Shown: one piece after another, positions 49,116 to 64,000 of the stretch | Position numbering within the stretch: the stretch's first letter is position 1 | How the letters are laid out: each line of letters begins with the position of its first letter | Assembly (NCBI GenBank): GCA_963575745.1 | Contig: CAUYUJ010003016.1 | Span: 1-64,000 of the forward strand | DNA: 64,000 nucleotides | Source of the DNA: Prorocentrum cordatum | Taxonomy: Eukaryota > Sar > Dinophyceae > Prorocentrales > Prorocentraceae | Direction of reading: 5' to 3' | Position numbers and translations under genes: made by a program | The notes under the pieces: model-generated | Seen by the model: the letters and a program-made list of their open reading frames with translations, nothing else | Databases searched by the model: none | Told to the model about the DNA's origin: nothing

Positions 49116-49449
49116 GGGAACCGCATTAAGAAAGCCAAGTAAGAACCCCGAGGTGAAAGCACTGACCTGAAGGCCTCAACAGTTCCACGGGAGGGAGGCG
49201 GACTATGTTCAAAACGCTGAACGTTACGTTCTGCTAGCGCCGCGCAAGTTTGCCTCAAACCCCCAACTGTTACATGGAAACCCCTCCTCCTGGACCTGGA
49301 CGGGGGGGTCCGCGACGCGTTGGAGCGTCCAAGATGGCCCAAGACGGTTCCAAGAGCGCCTCCGAGAGCCCAAGTTGACCTCCAAGATGGCTTAAGACTC
49401 CTAGAGGCCGCAATAACGAATCAAGACGGCCACAGGTGGCCACAGAGTC
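49116..49449. other. intergenic DNA at the copia border
   Basis: Contains one diverged unit of the 38.7-kb repeat family (49,205-49,275) and a short CCAAGA-type run (49,325-49,400). The copia element's 3' border should lie near the end of this stretch but no LTR edge could be fixed. Confidence 0.45.
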
Positions 49450-49834
49450 GAAAACAAGCTGGTAAGCTTAGGTATGTGTTACGCTTTAAGCGTTGCCATA
49501 TCCCAGGCTTTGGCTCATATCGCATGAGCAAGAGAGCAAGACGAAGCATGGGATCTGGAGTAAAGGATAGGATGGGCATCGTCAATGGAAAAGGTATTTT
49601 CCGATCTCTGATGCAAGTCGTGCGCCTCGGTGAGGCACAATCACATATTTGGCCGGGCCCGGCTTGAGCCAGGCACGGCAGCGGTACATGCTCGATTTAT
49701 ACCTCGCCTTTAACCTTCTCCGTTTAAAGTCGGAGGGGGAGGAGACGAGCAGGCACCGCACTTCTACATTATGCGGAAAAACAGTGCTAAGCAGCAGCGG
49801 CTGCCTACAAGGAAAGGGCGCGCGAGTAGCCTCG
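49450..49834 (-). other. 3' non-coding part of the copia element
   Basis: Follows the RNase H stop on the element strand. It has two hairpins close to the stop, a GGTATAAATCG TATA-like sequence (about 49,697-49,707) and no ORF. It may include the 3' LTR, but without the 5' copy this cannot be shown. Confidence 0.4.
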
Positions 49835-49887
49835 CTACCGGCGAGTTTCCTCGCTATTAAAGCGCACCTGCCCGCGGGTTTCCCCGC
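49822..49887. repeat. three 14-base hairpins around the copia stop codon
   Basis: GCGAGTAGCCTCGC (49,822-49,835), GCGAGTTTCCTCGC (49,841-49,854) and GCGGGTTTCCCCGC (49,874-49,887). Each has a 5-bp stem and a 4-base loop; the fourth pair is A-T in the first two and G-C in the third. The first two lie 5 bases apart, a double-hairpin arrangement spanning the end of the ORF. Confidence 0.85.
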
Positions 49888-50722
49888 TAGCTCGGGAGGC
49901 AGGGCCGTCCTGAGACGACCTGCCCGCCCTATACGGTGTATGTTTCTTCAGCTCGTGCTTGAAGGATTGCTGGCCGGCCATTACTTGTAGGAGCAACGCG
50001 CGGTCAATACTACCTTTGGTATGACCATCGGCAGTCATATCCCGCGTGTCACACCATTGAACGCTTTCAACGATTCCGCGCTCCATCATCTGGCGGATCC
50101 AGCTAATGTGCCCAAGCAGAGTACATTCTGTGGGCTTCTTCAGATCTTTGCTAGACAAAGACTTGAAGACAGACTCGGCATCAATAGTCAGAGTGACTTT
50201 GATACATAGACCACCCATTTCCAATATGTTCTTTAACTGTGTGGGGGTCAATGGTCCCGAGTGTAGCTCGTGGAGCGTTACAATGGTCGGGTAGCAGTCT
50301 TCCAAGTTGTGGGCTGCTGCCAGTGTTTCCGCAGAGTAGCTCGAACGCACCTGCAGTCGATGAGACTTGCAGTATGCGTCCACCAGGTGCACGACGGGTT
50401 TCCCCGCTTGCGTGTGGCCACGCCTCAGCAGGTTAGCCCCGCGGATACCATAGCCTTTGACTTCGTCGTCTTCATCTCCGTTGAGACGACGATAGCCAGA
50501 ATCGCTATGCAGGTCGACTTCTCCTGTTGGGGTCATAGCTTGATACACGATCTTCTTCGGACCTGCCTGTAGTTTTCTGGTAACCGCGTTTAGTCGTCGT
50601 ACCTGGATGTTTGTCGGTTCCTGGATACGTTGTAGTGAGACAACATAGACCATCAACCATACCTGCGTGATCAACGCATAGGCTAGAGCGCCACGAAGAC
50701 TGACGAACATATCAGAAATCGT
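49835..50722 (-). CDS. copia RNase H and C-terminus
   Basis: Continues the RT frame directly after an in-frame TAG (50,723-50,725). It shows FVSLRGALAYALITQVWLMV, then the RNase H residues: DLHSDSGYRRL (Asp), SSYSAETLAAAH (Glu), LTIDAESVFKSL (Asp) and CDTRDMTADGHTKG (Asp), the order of copia RNase H, which degrades template RNA. The tail is basic and partly encoded by the 14-base hairpins (SGETRG, SEETRR), here in a different frame from those in the gag part. The first Met at 50,710 is not a likely natural start: the segment is part of pol. Confidence 0.85.
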   Translation of the reverse strand, partial: TISDMFVSLRGALAYALITQVWLMVYVVSLQRIQEPTNIQVRRLNAVTRKLQAGPKKIVYQAMTPTGEVDLHSDSGYRRLNGDEDDEVKGYGIRGANLLRRGHTQAGKPVVHLVDAYCKSHRLQVRSSYSAETLAAAHNLEDCYPTIVTLHELHSGPLTPTQLKNILEMGGLCIKVTLTIDAESVFKSLSSKDLKKPTECTLLGHISWIRQMMERGIVESVQWCDTRDMTADGHTKGSIDRALLLQVMAGQQSFKHELKKHTPYRAGRSSQDGPASRASGETRGQVRFNSEETRR

Positions 50723-51478
50723 CTATGTCGCTTTGCTCTCAGGATCAGCTCCTGTAAGTTCTGGATGTGTGATAGGACGAAGCTGTTTGATGTATTCGTC
50801 CTGATCAAGAGTGACGCTCCCATCATCGGTCTTGTTATACCGAACGGCACAATTTGTGTATGTGTGCTTGTTCAGTTTGCACTTCCCAAACGTATCTTCA
50901 ACACACTTGACATACTTGTCAATAGCCTCTTCCTTCCCAGTCATATTGATGTCATCAACGTGCTTGGCTGTCAAGAGGTTTGGGCTCATCTCGAACTCTT
51001 CGTCGTATGAAGTAGGCTGTAGCCCAAAGCTCCTAGTGATGGACCTGAGCTTCAGCGAGAATGCCCTGGGAGCATCCTTCGTGCCCGTCCCCGGCTTCAG
51101 ACACCGAAGACAATGCTTTGATTCGTCATATGACTCAAAGCCTGGCAGCGTGCGAAGGACAGCTGCTGACCCAGGTGGTAGTGCGAAGCACACCACGCGC
51201 TCTTTCTCGCCCGTTGCCGCGGCGAGCTCGCCATAGGTCAGTCCCTTCAAGAAAGCCATGTTGATGTCCAGGGAAGCGATGATCCAAGCTTTGTTGCATG
51301 CGGCAGAACTTGCGAGCAGTCTCTGGCTTGACCTCCTTGCCGTGCCAGAGAAGGTTTCGACATCAAAGGCTTCAAGGTCCATAAAGCCACGGAGTACCAA
51401 GCGCAACCTGATCGTCCTTTCCATTTCGCCCTTTTCGTTCTTGACAAACTTCCATTTGTATACGTAGCGTGACGTCAT
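50723..51478 (-). CDS. copia reverse transcriptase
   Basis: Copia-type RT: SRYVYKWKFV, IRLRLVLRGFMD, ETFSGTARRSSQRLL, IIASLDINMAFLKG (motif A Asp), LKPGTGTKDAPRAFSLKL, TAKHVDDINMTG (V-D-D catalytic pair) and LNKHTYTNCAVRY. All catalytic aspartates are kept. It overlaps the end of the integrase frame at 51,475-51,478 and is displaced from it by one missing base near 51,490: codons for SNIMTSRYV are recovered just upstream in this frame, so it was one continuous pol. It ends at a TAG that interrupts the same frame as RNase H. Confidence 0.88.
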   Translation of the reverse strand: MTSRYVYKWKFVKNEKGEMERTIRLRLVLRGFMDLEAFDVETFSGTARRSSQRLLASSAACNKAWIIASLDINMAFLKGLTYGELAAATGEKERVVCFALPPGSAAVLRTLPGFESYDESKHCLRCLKPGTGTKDAPRAFSLKLRSITRSFGLQPTSYDEEFEMSPNLLTAKHVDDINMTGKEEAIDKYVKCVEDTFGKCKLNKHTYTNCAVRYNKTDDGSVTLDQDEYIKQLRPITHPELTGADPESKAT

Positions 51479-54400
51479 GATGTTAGACGCTTGCTCAAGT
51501 CAGTCATCTGGAAGCATTTGTTGTCAAGCCAAGTCTTCAATTCTGTGTAAAGGGCTTTGGAAACTTTGACCGGATTTGCTTGGATGTCGGCCTTCGTGAG
51601 TAGATCGTCTTCCTTGACGACCACGGCACGTTTGGAAGCAGCACTAACGTATACTCGCATAGTTGTGACGCTGCTGTCATCCAACAATCGGTGTTGCTGC
51701 TCGGACAGGACGACTTTGGACATGTCTGCTGTGAAGCAGAGCTCGATGTACTTCCCGTGCTCATCGGAGTCCAGATCATATTTACTGTCCGGATCCGTGG
51801 AGCATAAGGGAACGTAGTAAGAAGTGTCCATGTCGTATCCTGGCGGGTGACCCCGCTCCGGCAAGTGGCCTTGCACATCTTCACAGGTCGTAGAGACTAA
51901 CACACACTGTGTGTCTGTCATGTATGTGGGAACTGTATGCATGACTTCCTCTGTGTCAGCTTCAAGGAGTGTTCTGTCATCCATCAGTTCAGCATACCAC
52001 GACTTCAAGACAAAAGCATCCAGATCTTCTTCTGTTTCCTCTATGATGGTCGGGAGCCGACCATCGTTATCCGTAGGAGGCTCCTCAGGAGCAGCTGCTG
52101 GAGGTGACTCGCTTGGTGGTGGACCATCAGCGAGTTCCTCAAACTTAGTGAGGTCTCGGTCAAATCCAGCAGACGACTTCCTGGATTTAAGACACTGGAT
52201 GATGCGTGAGTGTGTAGATCCTGTGATGTCATAGATGTTCAAGGCAGTGCCATCAGCTTCATAGTAATGAAAACCAGGGGTCACATCATTATCATAGTGC
52301 ACTAGTGTACAGCTGTCTGCATAGGGTGCAGCAGGCAACTTCGTCAGGCTCTTGGCAAGTCGTACAGCAACAACGTTTTCAATACGAAAGTAGTTGCGTA
52401 TGAGGTACTGAAGAGCCAAGTGCACCTTAGGCGAAAGTCGGCTCGCAGCAGTCATCTGCAGCCGACCCTGTTTCGCTGGTAGATATCCGAAAGTCATGGC
52501 GGGTTTCCCCGCTGGCAGACCGGCAATAAAGGCCAATACTGTCCGAAGGGCCGTATTGTCCGATCCTATCTCGCGGACCATAAGTGCTTCGATGTACAGC
52601 GTGTGTCGTGTGTCAGGATACTGTACTCGCACCTCGCGACTGCCGACCTTCACGATGACCTGGCCTCGGTCAGGTTCGTTGCGGATGACCGGGTATGGAC
52701 CACTCCATCCACCCCAGTCGTCTTTCGTGGTGGTCGGGCGATGATAGTCCACGAGATCTCCCTCTTTGTAGTGAAATTCACCCGTAGCAGTAGTCTTCGT
52801 ACGGAGAGCCCTGTTCGTCTTGGCAACCGCAGTGGCCTGCGTGATTGCCTCCAGACTAACCCTCCTGATTGTTTCCTCCCTTGAGTGATCTGATGATTCA
52901 GCGGACTGATCATGATCCAAGACAGGGAAATCGGGAAGCATAGCTGGTTGTCTGCCATACAGCGCATTGTACGGAGACACTTCATTGTAGAAGGTAAATG
53001 CGTTGCTGGCAAACAAGGCTTCATGTAAGAGACGAGTGAAATTGAGAGGAATATTTAATCTATTCAATTCTTCTCCCATCACGTGTAAGAGGTGTCGCAG
53101 GATGCCGTTCCTAGCTTCGATAGTTGTGGCGTGTTGGCCACGCGCTCGGATACGAAGCTCTGTTCCCTTAGCCTTAAGGATGGCCTTTGCTGTATCATTA
53201 TTCAGTGCTCCTTCCCCATCGGAGTATAAGATTTTAGCAGGGCCATGTTGCATCCAAGTCGTATGATAGGCATCGAGAACAGTATGCATGGCTTTATCAG
53301 GAATCTCTGTGCCAGCTGCCCAGCGAATACAACGGTCGATGATGTGAAAAACAATATGTTCCTGTTTGTAAAAGAAAAGATCACATTCGACTTCCTCGTT
53401 GAAACGTCCTGGCAGTGACACAGAAGGCATCACCGTGTTGCCTGGTTTGTCCCAGGCTCGACATTCTCTACACGAGTCACAAATGCCTTTGATCAGACTC
53501 AAACGGGTTTCACCCAGACCAACCTTGGTTAGAATCATCCGCATTTTTGGCTCCTTGGCATGAAACCATCTCAAGTGGAGTTTGCGGAGTTCTCGCTGCA
53601 CTACAGCTGGGTCGAAGCTGCGCAGGTTTTGGAGGCTGAGCTGAACGTCGAAGCGAGTCCAATCAGGGAGCCTTGGCCTTGGCCTCGGCTCTGCTTGAGG
53701 CTGCGGCGGTGGTGGAGGATCTCCTCCCTCCATGCGTCCGCGCCTTGCTGCAACTTGTGGCAGTCTACGGTGATCGTCAGAGCTGCCAGCGCCAGTGTTG
53801 CCACCATTAGCCCCTTCGGCTCTGGTGATGTCATGGCTGCTGGCGCCTGCGGTTGGATCGCCCTCACCAGGCCGTGGCGGCCTAGGCGCGCGTATGCGCG
53901 CTCTCGCGGCCGGCGCCGCTTTTGCGGCTGGCGCCGCTTCTGCGGCTGGAGCCGCTTCCGCGGCTGGCGCCGCAGGAGCGGCTTGCCCCGCCGGGCGCGG
54001 CTGGCCAAAGTTATCTGGCAGCTTCCATTTTTCGGCGAATCTGCATTGGCCAGATATCTTGGTGTGGTGAGGATTGCTCTTCTGATATTCCTTCTTACAG
54101 CTTGGACAGTCCCAGTAATACGGTTCAACATCATACCACCGACACATCTTCGGATCCCTGCTGTGCTTTGGTGATTGCTTGTAGTTGTTGTCCACACAGC
54201 CAGGGCACCCAAGACCGCCAGGTGGTGGTCGCCAGATTTCTCCGTTTGGGTGTCTCCGGATTGTTGGGTCGTCCAAGTCGTAGCCAGCACTGTTTGTTAC
54301 GAACGCATAGCTGCGTTCACGATTCGCGAATGGATCGCGACCGTAAGCAAACAGGTCTTTGGCGATTTGCACCGCATCAACGATCAGTGACTGCATTCTG

Positions 54401-56433
54401 TAGGTATACTGTGCCGCCCTTGCTAGTTCTTTGTTACAAGCATTGGCGTGCACATGATTACCTGGACAACGCTTGCCTCTGAAAGGTGCCAACAACTCTT
54501 CTTTGTTTGCCATCATCTGTGTTGGCTTGCGGATGTATTGTCCAAATGAATCTTTGAGACCAGTCGTGCACTGATCAATAATCGTTTGGCAAGTGACCTT
54601 GCGTTGTGCCAGTTCCTTCCATGGCTGGATCTCATCCACCCACGTGCCCATTGGTTGTTCCCTGAGAAAGAAACGTCTTAGGTCGTCTTGTAATAGAGCG
54701 ACTGTTCCACAGAACGTGATGTGAGGCAGGTCCTCTTTGTGGTGTTTAAGCCACGTATCATGATTGACCTGTGCATTGAAATAGGAAGGAAGTCCAGTAG
54801 TTCTGCAGCTTGGCTGCAGAATCGTGATCTTGACAAAGCAAGTCTTGAGGTAGTGGAGGACTGCTCTTTGTACTTCCGAGTTTCCAAGGTCAACCATAGA
54901 TATCTTGTCAAGGTTCCCGCCTGACGAGAGTCCCCTCTTGAAGGCTAATATGGATATACCACCCTTGCCCCCACATAATTCAAGCATGTCCACTTGATTG
55001 TTTCTGCCGTAGCATAATGACTGGACCATCGAGAAGACATCAGCATGTGAGTCAGCGGGTTGCCCCGCCGGTAACATCATGAAGATGTCCTCTGATTCGC
55101 TGTCCGAGTCCGAGTCGTCAAGAGGAACGTCGTTGAAATATGTGGAGCAGTCAAGCCCTTTGAGGTCCTCTCCACAGTCGTCGTTACCGTCTTCCACTTT
55201 CTTCGGGACTTTCTTCGGTTTGATGCCGGCCTCTTTGTCAGCTTTCTGCTTTTCTTTCTGTTTTATCCTGGCATCAGTGGGCAACGCAGTTTCCGCGGAG
55301 AGATCCGCTGCGGAGGAATCCACTGTTAAGTCAGGAAATGGCGGAATTTCAGGAAGGTTGTTGGTGGGTCGCGTTTGGCAACGCTCAATCGAAGGGGGAG
55401 GAGATCGATCGTCGTCGACGATCGTCACACGCTTTGGGCGTGGCCTTCGCGACTCACCGTCGCCATGAAGAACTGGAGCCGGAGGCTCCCAGTATAGCCG
55501 AGTACTGATGTTTGTAACCCCATCAGGTAATGGAGCTACATAATTGTACCCAGTTGGCTGATCCTGAATTCTAATATCTTGAACGATCTTATTCGTGTCC
55601 AGGTCGGTCGTGACTCTACGAACAACATGGTCCCATTGAGGGCCCTTTTGTGGACATTGGACGTAGTGTCTGACCTTTTTGTCAACGCGAGTACACACGC
55701 TGAGGTGTACCGCACTCCGCTCATTCCTGATCATGTTGGCTTTATCGAGTTGATCAAGGAAGCGTGCAATAATGATAGCCAAAGTTTTATACCGAAACTC
55801 GGCACGTTGCTGATCTTGGCCATACCAATCCAAATCATGCTCCTTGTGTGAGCCACAAGTACATTTCCATAAGTTTATCGGTATATGAGGACAAGATGTA
55901 GCAACTTGTATATAAGAACCACTGGGATATTTACTGGATCGGTCAAACTTGATACCGAAATGACAGAGTCTCATTCGTATAATGCTTAGCTTCAAATCTT
56001 CGATAACATCTTTGATCGGACCCTGTTTCCAGAAATACCCGGGTGGCCCCAGGATAACTATCTGCATTCTCAGAGCACGCGCTTTGATCAGGAGATTTTG
56101 TATACGTTGATAATGTGGTCCCGCCCTCTTTCCTGGAGTACGAACGTACCAATCAGAGGGTGTGGCCACCCACAACATATTGTAGTCTCCTGCCAACAAA
56201 TTTCCCAAATACTGTGTTCCAGTTGAAGTCATTACCTCATTATGGGTAATCCGGTCGCATATATATCCACGGGTTCGGAGTTCAGCGCAAGCTGTGCGAA
56301 TATCTTCGATGACAAGACATTTTGAATGATATTTTTCCTCTCGGGCCTCAGCGCGGCCAACGTATGTCGCGAGGAGGCCGGTATTCGGCTTCTCTTCGCA
56401 AGCGAGCGCCGCCGGCGCGCCCGCCTGCCCCCG
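51475..56433 (-). CDS. copia pol: methyltransferase-like domain, integrase, pre-RT
   Basis: The frame runs without interruption from the codon after the TGA at 56,434-56,436; the first ATG is at 56,232. Residues counted from that Met: 60-260, a region with conserved Cys/His (CPHIPINLWKCTCGSHKEH); about 416-620, a Rossmann/methyltransferase-like domain (MLELCGGKGGISILAF, ILQPSCRTTGLPSYFN, HITFCGTVALLQ, IDQCTTGL); about 770-860, Ala/Pro linkers made of hairpin repeats; 888-930, an HHCC zinc module (LRWFHAKEP...CDSCREC); 945-1,090, integrase core with D (VECDLFFY), D (LYSDGEG) and E (TIEARNGIL) all present. The rest is an acidic linker leading to the RT. Integrase inserts the cDNA; the role of the methyltransferase-like domain is unknown. 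Confidence 0.85.
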   Translation of the reverse strand, partial: RGQAGAPAALACEEKPNTGLLATYVGRAEAREEKYHSKCLVIEDIRTACAELRTRGYICDRITHNEVMTSTGTQYLGNLLAGDYNMLWVATPSDWYVRTPGKRAGPHYQRIQNLLIKARALRMQIVILGPPGYFWKQGPIKDVIEDLKLSIIRMRLCHFGIKFDRSSKYPSGSYIQVATSCPHIPINLWKCTCGSHKEHDLDWYGQDQQRAEFRYKTLAIIIARFLDQLDKANMIRNERSAVHLSVCTRVDKKVRHYVQCPQKGPQWDHVVRRVTTDLDTNKIVQDIRIQDQPTGYNYVAPLPDGVTNISTRLYWEPPAPVLHGDGESRRPRPKRVTIVDDDRSPPPSIERCQTRPTNNLPEIPPFPDLTVDSSAADLSAETALPTDARIKQKEKQKADKEAGIKPKKVPKKVEDGNDDCGEDLKGLDCSTYFNDVPLDDSDSDSESEDIFMMLPAGQPADSHADVFSMVQSLCYGRNNQVDMLELCGGKGGISILAFKRGLSSGGNLDKISMVDLGNSEVQRAVLHYLKTCFVKITILQPSCRTTGLPSYFNAQVNHDTWLKHHKEDLPHITFCGTVALLQDDLRRFFLREQPMGTWVDEIQPWKELAQRKVTCQTIIDQCTTGLKDSFGQYIRKPTQMMANKEELLAPFRGKRCPGNHVHANACNKELARAAQYTYRMQSLIVDAVQIAKDLFAYGRDPFANRERSYAFVTNSAGYDLDDPTIRRHPNGEIWRPPPGGLGCPGCVDNNYKQSPKHSRDPKMCRWYDVEPYYWDCPSCKKEYQKSNPHHTKISGQCRFAEKWKLPDNFGQPRPAGQAAPAAPAAEAAPAAEAAPAAKAAPAARARIRAPRPPRPGEGDPTAGASSHDITRAEGANGGNTGAGSSDDHRRLPQVAARRGRMEGGDPPPPPQPQAEPRPRPRLPDWTRFDVQLSLQNLRSFDPAVVQRELRKLHLRWFHAKEPKMRMILTKVGLGETRLSLIKGICDSCRECRAWDKPGNTVMPSVSLPGRFNEEVECDLFFYKQEHIVFHIIDRCIRWAAGTEIPDKAMHTVLDAYHTTWMQHGPAKILYSDGEGALNNDTAKAILKAKGTELRIRARGQHATTIEARNGILRHLLHVMGEELNRLNIPLNFTRLLHEALFASNAFTFYNEVSPYNALYGRQPAMLPDFPVLDHDQSAESSDHSREETIRRVSLEAITQATAVAKTNRALRTKTTATGEFHYKEGDLVDYHRPTTTKDDWGGWSGPYPVIRNEPDRGQVIVKVGSREVRVQYPDTRHTLYIEALMVREIGSDNTALRTVLAFIAGLPAGKPAMTFGYLPAKQGRLQMTAASRLSPKVHLALQYLIRNYFRIENVVAVRLAKSLTKLPAAPYADSCTLVHYDNDVTPGFHYYEADGTALNIYDITGSTHSRIIQCLKSRKSSAGFDRDLTKFEELADGPPPSESPPAAAPEEPPTDNDGRLPTIIEETEEDLDAFVLKSWYAELMDDRTLLEADTEEVMHTVPTYMTDTQCVLVSTTCEDVQGHLPERGHPPGYDMDTSYYVPLCSTDPDSKYDLDSDEHGKYIELCFTADMSKVVLSEQQHRLLDDSSVTTMRVYVSAASKRAVVVKEDDLLTKADIQANPVKVSKALYTELKTWLDNKCFQMTDLSKRLTS
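53906..53973. repeat. array of four 14-base hairpins, 18-bp period
   Basis: GCGGCCGGCGCCGC (53,906), GCGGCTGGCGCCGC (53,924), GCGGCTGGAGCCGC (53,942) and GCGGCTGGCGCCGC (53,960), each separated by 4 bases. The fifth stem pair is C-G here, against G-C in the commoner GCGGGTGGCCCCGC form elsewhere in the element. In the pol frame it encodes AAPAAE/K repeats. Confidence 0.9.
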
Positions 56434-56436
56434 TCA
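56434..56436 (-). promoter_or_regulatory. in-frame UGA-CGG between protease and pol
   Basis: The stop is the only interruption between the RING/protease frame and the pol frame, which are in the same phase across 59,130-51,475. The next codon is CGG, so the context is UGA-CGG, a known leaky stop context (type II readthrough of some plant RNA viruses). Whether it is a programmed readthrough site or a chance mutation cannot be told from one copy. Confidence 0.45.
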
Positions 56437-59170
56437 GCGGCGGTCGTGTGACCACGTTGCCGTCTGACTCGGGGGCATGCTGTTAGCGGATGGCTCCGCA
56501 GGAGTCGCTGGTGCGGCTACGCTCACGATCTCCACGCGGGTTGGCCCCGCAGAGTCCGACGAGCCTCCGCCCGTGTAGCTTGGTGGTGGTGGCGGTGTCG
56601 CGGGTGGCCCCGCTTGGTTCTCAGGCGTCCATTTATTCACCGCCTCCTGGACTGCCCAGAATATCTTAGACTTCAGGGCATCCTTCATATGTGGCCAGGT
56701 CCCCTCGGGACACTGTTGGCCCTCCCACCAGCTGTTCAGCGTCCTGTCCACGATCAAACGGGTCGTGTCTTCCAGGAGCTGCTTGTCGAGATACGGCTCG
56801 ACAATGTACGTATCAGTCGTGACGGTCATGGACTGTCCCGTCGCGGGTTGCCCCGCTGTGGTCTCGGCGGGTGGCCCCGCACTTACTCCGGCGGGTGGCC
56901 CCGCACTGACGGGGTCCTCTTCGTTCTCCGTCTCGGTGTAGCCATCTCGACTGCTGCGGATTGTGAAGGTGTTCGTGACCGTCTGGCTTTTAGCCCCGTC
57001 ATACAAACCGCAGGGAATCGCGAGATGTCCCGAGGGAGTTTTCTTCGCCCTCAGGACCTTGGCACCCCTTCCCAGCTTCAGGGTGTAGTCACCGCTGGGG
57101 AAGATAACCTTCTGGTAGCCTGGCTTCAGCACGATGATCGTGTCACGTGCTTCCATGGCTCCTAGGCCCCAGATGGCCGGGAGATTGGCACCCGAGCCTT
57201 CTGCGATGTTGGAGGCATACTCCTCGATACGGGGGCTTGCCTCATTGGCGTATTGCACCCCGATCTTGAAGTTGCCCATCTTCCGACATATCGCAGCACC
57301 CTCACCGACACCGTTGATGTAGAGGGTCTTGCTCAGGGTGCATATGGCAGGTCTGTGATTGTACCTGGCCATAATCTCCTGGAAGGTTCGCGCCGTATTG
57401 GCTCCAATGATGTTCACGTTGGAGCCAATGTCTAGCATGAACGAGATGCAGGGCATACCGTCTTCGTCAGGAAAGAATGTCCCATTTCGCGCTGCCAGAG
57501 CCATTGTACCATGGTCATCGGTGTGGTACGTAATCTGTGAACCGAGTGTGCCTTTCAACAGGCGTTGTTCAAGCACCCATTGACTCATGGTTAACTCGGT
57601 GCACCACATCTGCTCATATTGGCGGCGCTCCTCCACGGTAATTGGTTCCTGTTCGAGAACCCAATAATTCGCAGAGAGTGTGGACATCCATTCACCTCCT
57701 GGCGGCAGCGTGTCCGTGTCGTCACGTGCATAGGTCAGCCCCTCTGTATCGATCATGAATGTGGTGTGGAACTGGGCTGCCTCCGCGCTCTCAGCGCTTG
57801 CCCGGCTCCTAGCGCTGACCGGGCTTGCCACACGTGAGGTCCTGGATGATCCAGTTGGCCTTCGAGTCCCGCCTCCGCTCCTGCCACTCCGCCTGATGTT
57901 GGCCTCCATTGCCCTCAGGAAACCTGGATTTGGAGGCCCATTTGCGGGTGGCCCCGCTTTGGCGGCGGGAGCCGCTTCAGCGGGTGGCCCCGCAGCTGGG
58001 GGCTCCTGTGCTCGAAGCGTAGGCAGGATTGGCATCTGGATGCCTTGCTCTGGCGCTGGCCAGGGGTATGCCTGTGCAGCTGGGGCACGTGCGGATGGCT
58101 CCGCCGATTGTGCGGCTCGAGCCTCTAGTGCCTCCACTGCTTCCCGTAGCCGACGCATTTCCCGGGCATCTGCCACGTACCTCTCCTGCTGGCGCGCTTG
58201 TTCTGACTCAGCGTCGCGCTGTCCAGCATATGGGAAATGTGCTATAACTATGCCCGGCCCACGACATACAGCGCAGGGGGCCTCGTTCGGCGCACCTGGC
58301 CGCTGATTGCGGACGTGCTGCTGTGCAACACGATCCCAGCATATATCGTGGAAGAAGTGCCCACACGCCAGTCTCCACACTATGGTGCCCATCTCGTAGG
58401 TGTCCATACAGATTGGGCACTGTGTGAAGTTGTAGTCTGAAATAACTGGAGCAGGCACGTCTGGGCGAGTCCGAGCTTGGCGCTCGAAAGTGGTTTCGCC
58501 CTCCCGATATGGCGTCGGTGGCGGTCGTCTATCTGTCCGTTCAGCGGGTGGCCCCGCGTCTGCGGGTGTCCCCGCTTGGGTCTCACGCTCGATCCTTCTC
58601 TGGATCGCGCGTTGTTGGCGCAGCCTGGCGTTGTCCCGAGCCTGCTGCCTAGATGCCAGTATCGCTTGCTGCGTGTTGTGCACGTCGCGGATGTAGTCTG
58701 GCATGCTGCCCATAGCGGCTGGCACCGCGAGACCAGCTGGCTGAACTACGGTCTCGGGGTCCGTCGGCGTGGGCATGTAGGCGTAGTGCGGCATAGACTG
58801 CGCATCGACCGCTCGTGTAAACTGCAAACGAAACATCTCATTGGCAAGATTCCGAGTGTATTCGTTCGCAGGTGGCCCCGCAATCATAGGAGTGTTATTC
58901 ATCTGCGCGTAGTACTCCGGGTACATCGGCGCGTCCATGGCCTGTGCCTCTGCTGGTCCATGATTGTCCCATCCATATATTGGGTGTGATGCTATTCCTG
59001 GAATAAACACCTGTCGATATGGATTCGTGGGATCAGCATTTGGAGCATCTTCAGAAGTCCAGCTCCAGAGAGGCCGAAAGTCGCCATGATTCGTAACATC
59101 TATGTTGCGGTTCCGCAACAGGCTGGGCACTCTATCAGCTTGTTGCTGCAGAAAGGTAGCCTGTGCTCTT
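56434..59170 (-). CDS. copia RING-finger and aspartic-protease polyprotein
   Basis: Residues counted from 59,130. The N-terminus continues upstream in the same frame (YERRAANLRAQATFLQQQAD), overlapping the end of the preceding ORF in the -1 frame, so a frameshift may join them. About 236-292 is a RING-H2 finger: CPICMD, ACGHFFHDICW and APCAVCRG give C-x2-C...C-x-H-x3-H-x2-C...C-x2-C, the zinc ligands of E3 ubiquitin ligases. Helical and Ala/Pro-rich segments follow. About 560-700 is a retropepsin-like protease: FMLDIGSNVNIIG (D-x-G-S active site), LYINGVGEG, and a second hydrophobic-Gly region (LPAIWGLGAM). The end is Pro-rich and stops at TGA in phase with pol. The protease should cleave the polyprotein; a RING finger in this place is unusual. 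Confidence 0.8.
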
Positions 59171-62100
59171 AAGTTGGCTGCCCGACGTTCATAGTCTGAC
59201 CTTGCTGTCCGTCAGCGGGTGGCCCCGCGTGTGCGGGTGACTCCGCAGGCGTTCGCTCGGCGGGTGTCCCCGCAGCCACTCCTCCTTCACTACCCCTCGG
59301 AGTGCCAAAGGGAGTGGTCGCCTGGAGTGCTGCTGCGAGCGCCGGATTCCCGCGAATCGCCTGGAGTCTTTGCCACAAGCTGTTCTCGCTCGTTTCAGAC
59401 GGCGGAGTCCGAAACGGCGAGCCACCATCTGAACCGCCCATAGGGACAAACCTCGCACCTCCAGCTTGCTGCGGAGGGCGTTGTGGTTGTGGTCCTAGGA
59501 CGCCTGGTGGCCCCGCAGGAGTGCGCAGGTTCCTCTGCTGTGCGTCTTGGATACCTGTATGCACTGCCCACGGGTCAGCACGATATAGCTGATCGGTCAG
59601 TCCAGAGACGTCGGCTGGTGTCAAATAGCTGTTGAGGGCCTGGACCCATGTCTGCTGGTCCGGCCTCAAAGGAGATGCTACCGTTGCTACTGGTGTGACC
59701 ACTTGTTGCCATGAACCGTCCGAGGTGTCTACCGCGGGTGTCCCCGCACCTGCGGGTGGCCCCGCTTCAGGCATGACCTCGTCCTCCTGGGCATTCATCA
59801 TGAGGACTGTCTGTGTGTCGTACGGTCGTGGAGCAACATCTTGCTCGGTCATGACCAAATTGAATGGGCGACCGTCCGTCTTAGTCCAGCCCTTTAGGTA
59901 CATGGCGTGATCTTCCATTACACCCAGAGTTCTGTCACACATTTTAAGTGGCAGGTAGTCATCGGTGCGAATCCTGTCCGCGGGTTGGCCCCGCCTCCGC
60001 GACTTGTCATAAGCCAGCGGATTGCTCCAGGCTTCGCCGACCCGATATTTCGCAATGCTCACAATCTGGAGGATATGATCGGGCGGTATACGTCCGTCGT
60101 GGCCCCGTGTCATGACTATGTCATTTGCTGATCTCCATAGGGAGAAGCCACTGGACAGCATCTTGTTGATGCTGCAGAATATGAGCACCTCCGAGTCAGG
60201 ACGGATGCCCGATTGAATCCTCGGGTCGCCCGGGAGGTAGGGGCAGCCGTGCACAAATTGGCGCCCCCCCTTCCTTTTAGGGTTGTCCTGTGCGAGGCAT
60301 GAAAGGCCATTAGCAAGGATGTCCTTGACATACTCCCACTGTGTCCCGTGGATGAAATATACTGGGTCGTCTGGTTCTTTCATCCATGTTGTGATCGGCT
60401 TATAAAGCGACTCGGGACAGTGGATGCCTGGACTGCTGTGGCCGTTCGTGGCTCTGATGAAGTACTGTGGCCTGCGTGCCTTTGGTCGAAACCTGGGAGG
60501 CAGCAGCATGCTGTCCTCAACGCACTTCATCTGGAGCCTGCCCTTCTGCATGCCGTGATGGTCAATCATCTCACAGCAGTTTAGCAGCACCCAATACACG
60601 TATGACGTGTGGGGCCTGCCCTTGATCAGCACCTCGTGCATTTCACGATAGCCTTTCCACTGATCATTTTCAGTCCAGTTTGTCAGCAGATCGTCAACAA
60701 CAACCCAGCCATCGTATGGATCGAAAGTGCTGATCTTTTCGAAGTGTCGGCTGAATCCGTCCTTCCAATATGGACTATGGCGTAGGGCTGTAGAGAACCA
60801 TATTGACACCTTGGTCATTTGCCCTTCGCGCGGCAAAGTCGGATCCATGCCGAACCTCTCCATGACCTTCAGGAGCTCTGCTTTATGCTGCGCAACGCGT
60901 AGTGGCGGCCTGTCTCGCAACATATTTCCCACGGTTTGTTGTTCACGTTCCCAGTCGTTGCGGCACTCGAAGTTACGACGATCAGGGCAATTAATGACCT
61001 CGTATCGGTCCGTATCGTCTCGAGTGACTCGTGGGTTTATGGTGCGCTTCGGGCCTTTGCCTTCAATGCCTTGCCAGTATTCGATGGCTCCCAGAGGGAT
61101 GTTCCTAAGAACAGACATTACTGGCTGCCCGCGCGCGGGTGGCCCCGCTAATGCAGCTGGCGGCGCTTTAACGGGTGGCCCAGCAGAGCCTGCGGCTGAC
61201 GAGGCAGCTCCAGCGGATGACTCCGCGCCAGGGTTCGGGTGACCTTGGTCAGCAACTGCATCATCGGTTAGTTTCTGTCGGTCGCCAAATTCTTTGAGGA
61301 CTCTGAAGCGTTCTTCTCTTGAGAGAGTGCCTTCTGCGGGTGTCCCCGCTGCTGCAGCTGGCGCCGCTTTAGCGGGTGGCCCCGCAGAGCCCTTGTCCTC
61401 CTTAGCCTTGGCGGCCGCTTCTGCCCGCACCGACCTCATCCCAGCTTCGGGCTTCGGCTGTGCTTTCATTCGTGCCGAACCTGGTCGTGGTGCAAGGCGC
61501 GGCTGATGCAGAGTTGGAGTCCAGTCACCTCGGAAGGCTGCCTTAGGCTGATTGCGAGCTTCATCCTTGACATCGCCTTGGGTCGCCGGTGGCATCGGGG
61601 TCGATGGTCCAGCAAAAGCCTTCCTCCTCTCCGTCACGGACAGACCGGGAGGATCTACCGGCTCAGGGTCGTCCGTCTTGGCGATCCCTCTGGCCTTCGC
61701 CCGCCCCTGTGTGCCTTCGGGGCTCTTGGACGGGTGCCTTTTCGCAGGAGTCGGTGAAGACGAGGAGTCGGCTTCAGGTCTTGGAGGTGGTCTGCTGCCC
61801 TTGCCCGGTTGTGGACCAGGAGGGTCTCTAGGAGGGCCTTCTGGCTGGCCATGATCATGGATGACCTGCCTCATCTGGTCGATGTCGGCAGTGCCTTTTA
61901 TGGCCAGCTTGTACTTGCCATTTTCATGGCGGTGAATTACCCTCGTGCAAAACCACTTCTGCGCCGAAGAGCTGTAGTACCAGCAGGCGCATCCATCAGG
62001 GAATGGATTCTCTGAGCCGTCTTCCGCCGCCCATTCTTCATTCAGTTCGGTGTGGTCAGTGCCGGCGGCGGACCCAGCAGCAGATGCAACAGCTATCCAA

Positions 62101-63983
62101 TCGTCGTCCGCGGACCCAGCGGCTGGCGCCGCGTCTGCGGGTGACCCCGCTTCTTTGCTGGATCCTGCGGGTGACCCCGCCTCTTTATGGAATCGGCGGT
62201 TCCATTCCTTGAGGCGATGGTCATTGGGAAGCTGTACCCAATTTTCCCTGACGATGTTGGCCACCTCTTCGGTCATAGGGACGCGATCGGCTTCGGTGAT
62301 GCGCTTTCCTCCTCCAGGGACCTCCTTGTTAGGATCATGGACGTTGCCAGCGTCATCTCCATGAGACCAATTCCACGGGGTCTCACCGTGATGAGGACTC
62401 CTGGAGGGGCGGTCCATCGGACAACTGCGCATGTGACCTTTGAAGGGCTCGCACTGACATACTTGTTTCCTGTATGTCTTGCGATCGTTGATGATCTCCT
62501 GTTTCTTAGCCCTTTTGTCCCAAGCCTCTGGCGTTTTGGTCTTGCCACCCTTGGTACGTATTATCACGCCAGTTTCGTCCCTTTTGGTGCAGTACTCCTT
62601 AGAGTACCAGTGGCGGATCACGTCCATCGAATAGCCGGGGTACCAGTTGATGTACCAATCCGGCACATGCTGAGCGGATACTCCAACGGAGTGCTCAGTA
62701 CTGTATGGATAGCCCGATGCATCATGTGTAGGGCGTCTGGGAGCTGAACGGCTCCTCCTGCGGGCTGGCCCCGCTGACGCACTACCACGTTCCATTGGCC
62801 TTTGATCGTCATGCTCTGAGTCTCGGGGAGGCGACGGTCGTCTGTCCCTCTTGGCGTAGCGCATGTCCTCCGAGTCCTCTGAGCTGTCCTGGACCATGAA
62901 CACGTGTTGATACGGGCTTCGGAAGTACCCGATGTCGTTTAACTGCTCCATCGTGAGGTCGTTAAGGTCTATTTGATCACAACCTTGCATAAATACATCC
63001 ATAGACCAAGCGGGTGGCCCCGCTGTTGCGGCTGGCGTCACTTCGGCGGGTGACCCCGCTAGAGCCTGGAGTGCTGTCAGCATCTGAGGTGCCGACATGT
63101 CCGAATCCAGGTATGGACGCAGCCGTGCAGCCCCTGGGCGCGACAGCAGGTCGTTCATGGTTATCTGCTGATGTGCTGGCGCACTCAGGAGTCGGATTGC
63201 TTCAGCGACCTGCTCTTGGAGCATGTCCTTATAGTCATCTTCCGCCTCTTCGGAGTCAGAGTACGCGGGATGGCCCCGCATTTCGTCATCAGCGTCTCCC
63301 GCCTCCGAACCAGCTCGCGAAAGGTCTGGCAGCAACGGCGTGCCAATCACCTGCGGTGCCAGCGCGGCGGTGAGCTCTTCCTCGGTCGCCGGGACGGTCT
63401 CAGCTTCGGAGACCTCGTCGCCGGCGGGTGGCCCCGCTGGAAGACCGAACCAAGCATTGAACGCGACCTCGTCGACCTCGTCCCAGCCGTGGAACTCGTC
63501 GAAGAGGGTCACTGCGTAGTCTTCCAGGGCTACGGTTGCTTCAGCGTAGCGGGCCATCACGTAATACGTGGAGGAGCCCGCAGCGGGAGCCGCTTCTGGA
63601 TTGACGTAAAACTCGTAGTCAATGTAGTCTATGTCATCCATAAAAGAATTTTGAGCCAAATGCACGGATCCCTTTCCTTTCCCCTTCGGGCATTGATCGC
63701 GCAAATGCTCTGTGCTACCGCATGTATGACACTTCATAGTATTGCCAGAAGCGTCCCTAGGGTTGCCCCTCCGCCCTTTTCCCTTACCGGAGGTCCGCCT
63801 GTGACCCCGACCTTTGCCTCCGATAAGAACTTCTTCAAAGGCTATATCAGTTAAGGACGTGAGGAAAGCAGTAATACCCCTACCATGCATACGGCGTCTG
63901 CGACCCCCTTTGCCACGACCCTTTCCATATCGTTTGAAATGTCGGCGTACTGCACGTCTCACTTTTCTGACTGGTTTCTTCAT
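59169..63983 (-). CDS. copia gag-like protein with Tpt1/KptA-type RNA 2'-phosphotransferase domain
   Basis: 1,604 residues from the first Met; the frame is open to the window edge, so the N-terminus may be incomplete. Residues 1-40 are strongly basic; 83-96 is a CCHC knuckle (CHTCGSTEHLRDQC). Acidic and Ala/Gly/Pro-rich linkers (many AGPPA units from the hairpins) follow. About 1,055-1,315 matches both lobes of Tpt1/KptA in order: STALRHSPYW (R1068, H1069), DGWVVVDDLL, QKGRLQMK, YFIRATNGHSSPG (R1177, H1182), VYFIHGTQWEYVKDILANGL (H1212), GRQFVHG (R1241, H1245), SEVLIF, LWRSANDIVMTRG and GRIPPDHI. The Arg-His-Arg-Arg tetrad essential in known Tpt1 enzymes is intact. Those enzymes move a 2'-phosphate from RNA to NAD+. 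Gag role is inferred from the knuckle and position. It ends ahead of the protease frame with a short overlap. Confidence 0.82.
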   Translation of the reverse strand: MKKPVRKVRRAVRRHFKRYGKGRGKGGRRRRMHGRGITAFLTSLTDIAFEEVLIGGKGRGHRRTSGKGKGRRGNPRDASGNTMKCHTCGSTEHLRDQCPKGKGKGSVHLAQNSFMDDIDYIDYEFYVNPEAAPAAGSSTYYVMARYAEATVALEDYAVTLFDEFHGWDEVDEVAFNAWFGLPAGPPAGDEVSEAETVPATEEELTAALAPQVIGTPLLPDLSRAGSEAGDADDEMRGHPAYSDSEEAEDDYKDMLQEQVAEAIRLLSAPAHQQITMNDLLSRPGAARLRPYLDSDMSAPQMLTALQALAGSPAEVTPAATAGPPAWSMDVFMQGCDQIDLNDLTMEQLNDIGYFRSPYQHVFMVQDSSEDSEDMRYAKRDRRPSPPRDSEHDDQRPMERGSASAGPARRRSRSAPRRPTHDASGYPYSTEHSVGVSAQHVPDWYINWYPGYSMDVIRHWYSKEYCTKRDETGVIIRTKGGKTKTPEAWDKRAKKQEIINDRKTYRKQVCQCEPFKGHMRSCPMDRPSRSPHHGETPWNWSHGDDAGNVHDPNKEVPGGGKRITEADRVPMTEEVANIVRENWVQLPNDHRLKEWNRRFHKEAGSPAGSSKEAGSPADAAPAAGSADDDWIAVASAAGSAAGTDHTELNEEWAAEDGSENPFPDGCACWYYSSSAQKWFCTRVIHRHENGKYKLAIKGTADIDQMRQVIHDHGQPEGPPRDPPGPQPGKGSRPPPRPEADSSSSPTPAKRHPSKSPEGTQGRAKARGIAKTDDPEPVDPPGLSVTERRKAFAGPSTPMPPATQGDVKDEARNQPKAAFRGDWTPTLHQPRLAPRPGSARMKAQPKPEAGMRSVRAEAAAKAKEDKGSAGPPAKAAPAAAAGTPAEGTLSREERFRVLKEFGDRQKLTDDAVADQGHPNPGAESSAGAASSAAGSAGPPVKAPPAALAGPPARGQPVMSVLRNIPLGAIEYWQGIEGKGPKRTINPRVTRDDTDRYEVINCPDRRNFECRNDWEREQQTVGNMLRDRPPLRVAQHKAELLKVMERFGMDPTLPREGQMTKVSIWFSTALRHSPYWKDGFSRHFEKISTFDPYDGWVVVDDLLTNWTENDQWKGYREMHEVLIKGRPHTSYVYWVLLNCCEMIDHHGMQKGRLQMKCVEDSMLLPPRFRPKARRPQYFIRATNGHSSPGIHCPESLYKPITTWMKEPDDPVYFIHGTQWEYVKDILANGLSCLAQDNPKRKGGRQFVHGCPYLPGDPRIQSGIRPDSEVLIFCSINKMLSSGFSLWRSANDIVMTRGHDGRIPPDHILQIVSIAKYRVGEAWSNPLAYDKSRRRGQPADRIRTDDYLPLKMCDRTLGVMEDHAMYLKGWTKTDGRPFNLVMTEQDVAPRPYDTQTVLMMNAQEDEVMPEAGPPAGAGTPAVDTSDGSWQQVVTPVATVASPLRPDQQTWVQALNSYLTPADVSGLTDQLYRADPWAVHTGIQDAQQRNLRTPAGPPGVLGPQPQRPPQQAGGARFVPMGGSDGGSPFRTPPSETSENSLWQRLQAIRGNPALAAALQATTPFGTPRGSEGGVAAGTPAERTPAESPAHAGPPADGQQGQTMNVGQPT

Positions 63984-64000
63984 AAAGCGCCTCCAACGGC

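Follow-up and report, generated by a model that had tools for sequence, protein, structure and literature searches.

A Tpt1/KptA domain on the Gag side of a Ty1/copia-type retrotransposon of the dinoflagellate Prorocentrum cordatum

Enzyme capture by retrotransposons is known. Dinoflagellate DIRS and LINE elements carry a DNMT, a captured nucleic-acid-modifying enzyme, and Symbiodinium Copia elements are described in the same source without any DNMT domain (PMC5890265). Orchid Ty3/Gypsy elements, likewise LTR retrotransposons with a captured RNA-acting enzyme, encode an AlkB m6A demethylase, and the associated angiosperm screen assigned 15 of 15 extra domains to Gypsy and none to Copia, with KptA unnamed in the accessible part of that report (PMC9289625). 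Domains of the Tpt1/TRPT1/KptA family (PF01885) occur in cells, and also in the polyproteins of plus-strand RNA viruses such as Beihai picorna-like virus and Botrylloides leachii nidovirus (PMC9503650, in whose main text the words retrotransposon and retroelement do not occur). The role of Tpt1 in organisms that have no obvious source of 2'-phosphorylated RNA is considered an open question (PMC6333775).

The element described here combines features of these systems. Its domain has the two-lobed fold, R-H-R-R tetrad and HGT motif of cellular Tpt1, but sits within the polyprotein of a retroelement (with open frames that reach about 3,100 aa), contains extra insertions and is known from sequence. 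It shares the setting of a viral-type polyprotein with the RNA viruses, which replicate through RNA, whereas the element relies on reverse transcription. From the DNMT-bearing DIRS and LINE elements it differs in both enzyme and element class, and from the orchid elements in that the latter are Gypsy and carry their enzyme as a separate ORF. With Ty1/copia elements it has in common the LTRs, a tRNA-type primer binding site (PBS), the Gag knuckle and the order protease-integrase-RT; unlike them, it includes KptA and a RING finger, spans 16.3 kb and has more than one ORF. Among the matches listed from the open-licence PMC literature, we found no Tpt1/KptA described in a retroelement, neither the enzyme nor this placement, consistent with the original prediction that no LTR retrotransposon with this enzyme had been described. 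The word phosphotransferase is absent from the accessible text of PMC5890265 and from the P. cordatum nucleus paper (PMC10449503), and the accessible part of PMC4053983 tabulates Tpt1/KptA among regulated gene families and does not place it in a retroelement.

Architecture, ends and copies of the element

The window, that is, the whole stretch analysed (64,000 nucleotides, positions 1 to 64,000 of P. cordatum contig CAUYUJ010003016.1, assembly GCA_963575745.1), contains part of an element of 16,316 bp that lies on the minus strand and is bounded by 286-bp direct repeats. Repeat comparison placed the 3' LTR at 49446..49731 (-) and the 5' LTR at contig positions 65476-65761 (-), beyond the window; the pair is identical at 285 of 286 positions, with 1 mismatch. 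A target duplication of 4-5 bp is found at the element ends (CTGT, or TCTGT for an LTR length of 285 bp). The tRNA-type PBS TGGTAGCGGAGCTGG lies directly after the 5' LTR and is identical in all four loci checked for it (L013, L020, L022, L025) of a second family, here called A, the window element's own family being B. Thirteen of its nucleotides can pair with the 3' end, CCA being assumed, of a gene that resembles a tRNA (L033; AAT anticodon by ARAGORN) and has an initiator-like stem; this, the sole tRNA in ten loci scanned, is a candidate primer. The reverse transcriptase at 50726..51499 (-) matches RVT_2 (PF07727, E 1.2e-11), which identifies it as copia-type, and an integrase, recognised by motif only and without a Pfam match, lies upstream of it. 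The assignment to copia made in the original prediction therefore holds, and the element is a young Ty1/copia-type LTR retrotransposon.

The domains follow the order Gag, zinc knuckle and KptA; RING finger and aspartic protease; a methyltransferase-like stretch and integrase; RT; RNase H, with protease, integrase and RNase H assigned by motif only. Within the window the first ORF (59169..63998, -; its frame is open on to contig position 65726) covers the end of Gag, the zinc knuckle and KptA. The CCHC knuckle CHTCGSTEHLRDQC at 63690..63731 (-) was recognised by its motif, its PF00098 score of 17.2 bits being below the 20.8 cutoff. In ORF2, a RING finger at aa 237-290 (58261..58422, -) matches PF13923 with 31.2 bits and PF13639 with 29.6 bits. 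The aspartic protease motif DIGSNVNIIG (aa 567-576; 57403..57432, -) was located by eye; its region gave no Pfam protease match and is homologous to that of family A and of P0005, a B relative (46%) of 1627 aa that is encoded on a public contig of 5.7 kb and has KptA, RING and protease. The integrase region of ORF3 (53098..53577, -) shows HHCC and D..D..E motifs, seen by eye and without a Pfam match; the RT follows in a frame different from that of ORF3, and an RNase H-like region (49838..50722, -) lies after a stop codon, its motifs again found by eye, with no Pfam match.

Frames are broken in the window copy between KptA and RING and also around the RT, and we therefore call this copy young with an open KptA frame; any intactness beyond that frame is putative. 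In many other listed copies of family B the first open frame reaches about 3115 aa. Upstream of the integrase, ORF3 contains a methyltransferase-like motif, LELCGGKGGIS (window 54409-55080, -); this region has no Pfam match, its best PDB match has E 0.24 and a single-sequence model is uninformative (pLDDT 43). The RING finger, located in the protease ORF, shows the strongest constraint of all parts compared in family A, with a median dN/dS of 0.03, and might provide the particle with a ubiquitin ligase.

A genome search with the window domain yielded 4656 candidates, of which the best 120 were scored, and all 120 were at least 99% identical; 119 had no stop and 39, the window included, tied for the top score. 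For these top-of-list matches, the window family has undergone a recent burst of amplification. A Pfam profile search of the genome, in which the best 150 of 2877 candidates were scored, all above cutoff, separated by shape 7 cellular-looking and 143 element-like loci. The 18 element-like loci read in 10-kb stretches (L011-L028) all belong to family A, whose KptA is about 27% identical to that of the window; L008, the same place as L011, was left out of the counts. A third set comprises older relatives, and stops are present in 73 of 130 scored rows (the best 130 of 4800, B copies included). The totals 2877, 4656 and 4800 are first-look candidates, not copy numbers.

Outside this genome, 19 pattern matches in viral contigs and 11 in prokaryote genomes searched with the element profile included no relatives, and a long, gap-rich alignment used as query against proteins gave no matches, missing even the known relative P0005, which makes that search uninformative. 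Three public P. cordatum gene models (P0001, P0003, P0004) carry the same piece of the KptA N-lobe in otherwise unrelated predicted proteins and are probably errors of annotation or exonised parts of the element. Fragments of KptA resembling family A or family B also occur in a eukaryote protein set under the name of the green alga Pyramimonas sp. (P0008, P0009, P0012, P0013 and others), as expected equally from contamination or from transfer between algae.

Identity of the KptA domain and selection on it

The KptA domain spans aa 1030-1310 of ORF1 (60054..60896, -) and comprises an N-terminal RNA lobe and a C-terminal NAD+/ADP-ribosyltransferase lobe. Its match to PF01885 has 58.8 bits against a curated cutoff of 26, it also matches PDB entries, and the two-lobed arrangement, with a NAD+ lobe of ART type, is seen in the predicted AF2 model and in fold searches. 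The tetrad, R1068-H1069 in LRHSPYW (60777..60782, -), R1177 in FIRATNGHS (60453..60455, -) and R1241 in GRQFVHG (60261..60263, -), is invariant in a six-row alignment, one row of which is a cellular Tpt1; the assignment of each motif to the tetrad, made from this alignment and the known pattern of the family, is putative. The NAD+-contacting HGT motif (H183, G184 and T185 of the aligned domain) is likewise invariant in 6 of 6 rows. Family B departs from the family near the active site, with RATNGHS in place of RAxQGHS and RQFVHG in place of RxHVHL. Profile, tetrad and predicted fold thus agree with the earlier description of a complete Tpt1/KptA in a gag-like ORF, and the structural match to the KptA fold by which that description was to be checked was found. 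A chance match or artefact is ruled out by the PF01885, PDB and fold matches together with the conserved copies.

Selection was assessed on copies picked by score and mostly free of stops. For family A, the KptA core has a median dN/dS of 0.20 over 18 loci, with stops in none of them, and the corresponding medians are 0.195 for protease, 0.12 for gag, 0.09 for knuckle and 0.10-0.31 for linkers; over a 330-aa stretch the value is 0.227 (146 of 153 pairs with dS above 0.05). The tetrad, the KxR pair and the GH, HGT and SxN residues are kept in all 18 loci. Twenty domain stretches were fetched from the scored listings of B and older copies, all from rows without stops. Tetrad and HGT are kept in 12 of 12 fetched B copies, the window not counted, and dN/dS ranges from 0.12 to 0.29 in B pairs with dS 0.15-0.31 and from 0 to 0.39 in closer pairs (dS 0.05-0.15). 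At the shortest distances the window differs from one copy (L131) by 10 synonymous and 0 non-synonymous changes, whereas the comparison with another (L122) gives 4 non-synonymous changes and no synonymous one.

Judged from these sequences, KptA is under purifying selection in the A and B copies read. The copy sets are biased towards intact domains, since stop-free, high-scoring rows were chosen; within these score-picked copies, both the tetrad and purifying selection, the two properties that the original prediction proposed to look for elsewhere, are retained. In those copies of A and B that were read, dN/dS and tetrad rule out a degenerate passenger, a reading that fits the older copies: nine pairs with dS below 0.9 among the eight older copies give dN/dS of 0.36-0.85, the full tetrad is missing in 3 of 8, HGT is lost in 2 of 8, and one copy that keeps the tetrad (L128) has the HGT motif without its His. 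In these eight copies selection looks relaxed.

The same observations bear on the idea that the domain is an RNA-binding scaffold only, its RNA lobe helping Gag to hold RNA while catalysis is vestigial. The position of KptA after the Gag zinc knuckle would suit such a function, as would the altered family residues in B. However, the conserved tetrad and HGT include residues of the NAD lobe, and it is the older copies that lose some of them, so that we regard a pure scaffold as quite improbable. Overall, the KptA domain looks functional, its job for the element being putative.

Ancestry of the domain in families A and B

Identity between families A and B is 52% for gag, 53% for knuckle, 38% for RING, 37% for protease and 26% for KptA, the most divergent of the five domains compared. 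The domain order is common to A and B, and to P0005 from KptA to protease. Two features are common to the families and absent from the cellular row of the alignment: some 10 residues inserted ahead of the Arg that is fourth in the tetrad, and a PxSLY motif. In two trees A and B lie together to one side of a single branch (97/92 in the first and 94/93 in the second, where the grouping is not starred), and cellular eukaryote rows are poorly resolved in the same trees (42/15 and 78/64). Since the long branches of A and B meet, this branch is support, not proof. A bacterial source was rejected: prokaryotic rows (27 of 80 loci in the first tree, 14 in the second) form one branch side (99/98 and 99/99), and none groups with the elements.

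The low KptA identity, far under that of gag, and the meeting of long branches are what one would expect had the two families captured a host Tpt1 independently at the same place. Against this stand the insertion and PxSLY motif common to A and B, the identical position in a collinear polyprotein and the placement of A and B on one branch side, which leave separate captures highly unlikely. From these comparisons, KptA has probably been carried since before the A/B split.

The host genome itself has several distinct cellular-looking Tpt1 loci (L001-L007), of about four kinds by grouping, which are candidate genes. Cellular Tpt1 is often single-copy, and to have several loci is unusual.

Candidate roles in the particle

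Our overall explanation, which we consider fairly probable, is that of a copia element whose Gag-side Tpt1/KptA acts through NAD+ on phosphates of packaged RNA. Mechanistically, placement in the Gag-protease ORF would lead to production in Gag-like amounts and to entry into the particle, both deduced from this position. Inside the particle, the domain would use NAD+ and transfer ADP-ribose to phosphates of packaged RNA, as the chemistry of the family suggests. In this way, 2'-phosphates left on the template or the primer tRNA by cleavage and healing or by ligation would be removed, which might otherwise hinder the element's own reverse transcriptase. The tetrad engages 2'- and 3'-phosphates (PMC6333775), and a 2'-phosphate can interfere with reverse transcription, a published protocol removing it with Tpt1 and NAD (PMC10287922). 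Removal before copying would accordingly be the simplest benefit to a retroelement, and by analogy 2'-phosphate removal from template or primer tRNA may be the most likely role, one that we hold tentatively.

Against this role, the genome has RtcB (8 matches from 21 candidates), and RtcB leaves no 2'-phosphate, so that a source of 2'-phosphate in the host is putative. A T4-type RNA ligase (PF09511) was not detected in a search in which the controls were unmatched as well, so that this is not evidence of absence. The same circumstances agree with the main rival, in which 5'-phosphate ends, on fragments of the element's RNA or on its cDNA, receive ADP-ribose from the domain and are thereby hidden from exonucleases or sensors. 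It has this standing because TRPT1-type enzymes cap 5'-phosphate ends using the same tetrad: TRPT1 and a bacterial KptA do so in vitro, tetrad mutants of TRPT1 lose ADP-ribosylation of 5'-phosphorylated RNA (PMC6582358), and PDB entries of KptA complexes are titled with 5'-p-ADPR-DNA. No sequence feature found here separates capping from 2'-phosphate removal, though, and we rate capping as rather unlikely.

A role in conflict, an arms race in which host defence nucleases cut tRNA or genomic RNA and the domain mends the damage, or in which it modifies a host RNA, would account for KptA diverging fastest between A and B with its tetrad fixed, and the KptA of phages and RNA viruses has been read in this way (PMC9503650). 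On the other hand, within families the dN/dS of KptA resembles that of protease and the element shows no recognisable partner ligase; we see this role as unlikely.

As a side observation, the sense strand of the element contains 53 hairpins of 14 nt with the form GCnnn-loop4-nnnGC, with 42 GNNA, 2 TNNC and 9 other loops. The part of the element within the window (49446-64000, minus) has 47, where Markov simulation gives a mean of 0.8 and at most 3 over 20 runs; elsewhere in the window there are 20, with about 13 expected. Family A has 23-31 GNNA hairpins per 10-kb locus over 18 loci, and at 27 such sites of L013 the other 17 loci are 98.8% identical in stems, 96.1% in loops and 91.5% in flanks. 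Loops at these sites are GNRA in 407 of 456 cases (GAAA, GCAA, GAGA, GTAA, GGAA, GCGA, GGGA), and the commonest loops of the window, GCCA and GTCA, are not. Stem changes at 42 pairs comprise 17 broken, 15 G-U and 10 with both sides changed, at least 6 of these 10 being one inherited change. The hairpins, whose 5-bp stems start with GC, are often in frame, and the peptides AGxPA or RGNPP recur in their translations. RNA rather than DNA is suggested by the loops' strand bias; the hairpins could be signals for RNA packaging or protein binding, or a mini-palindrome that is mobile.

A broader proposal, possible though doubtful, is a copia-like lineage that has its own NAD+-dependent RNA phosphate-processing enzyme in the particle, for repair or end-masking coupled to reverse transcription, kept since before the A/B split, made diverse by conflict with the host and perhaps working on, or together with, the GNNA hairpins. 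An enzyme kept in two divergent families likely benefits the copying of RNA itself. With it, RNA repair or ADP-ribose capping would join DNA methylation and m6A removal among the functions acquired by retrotransposons.
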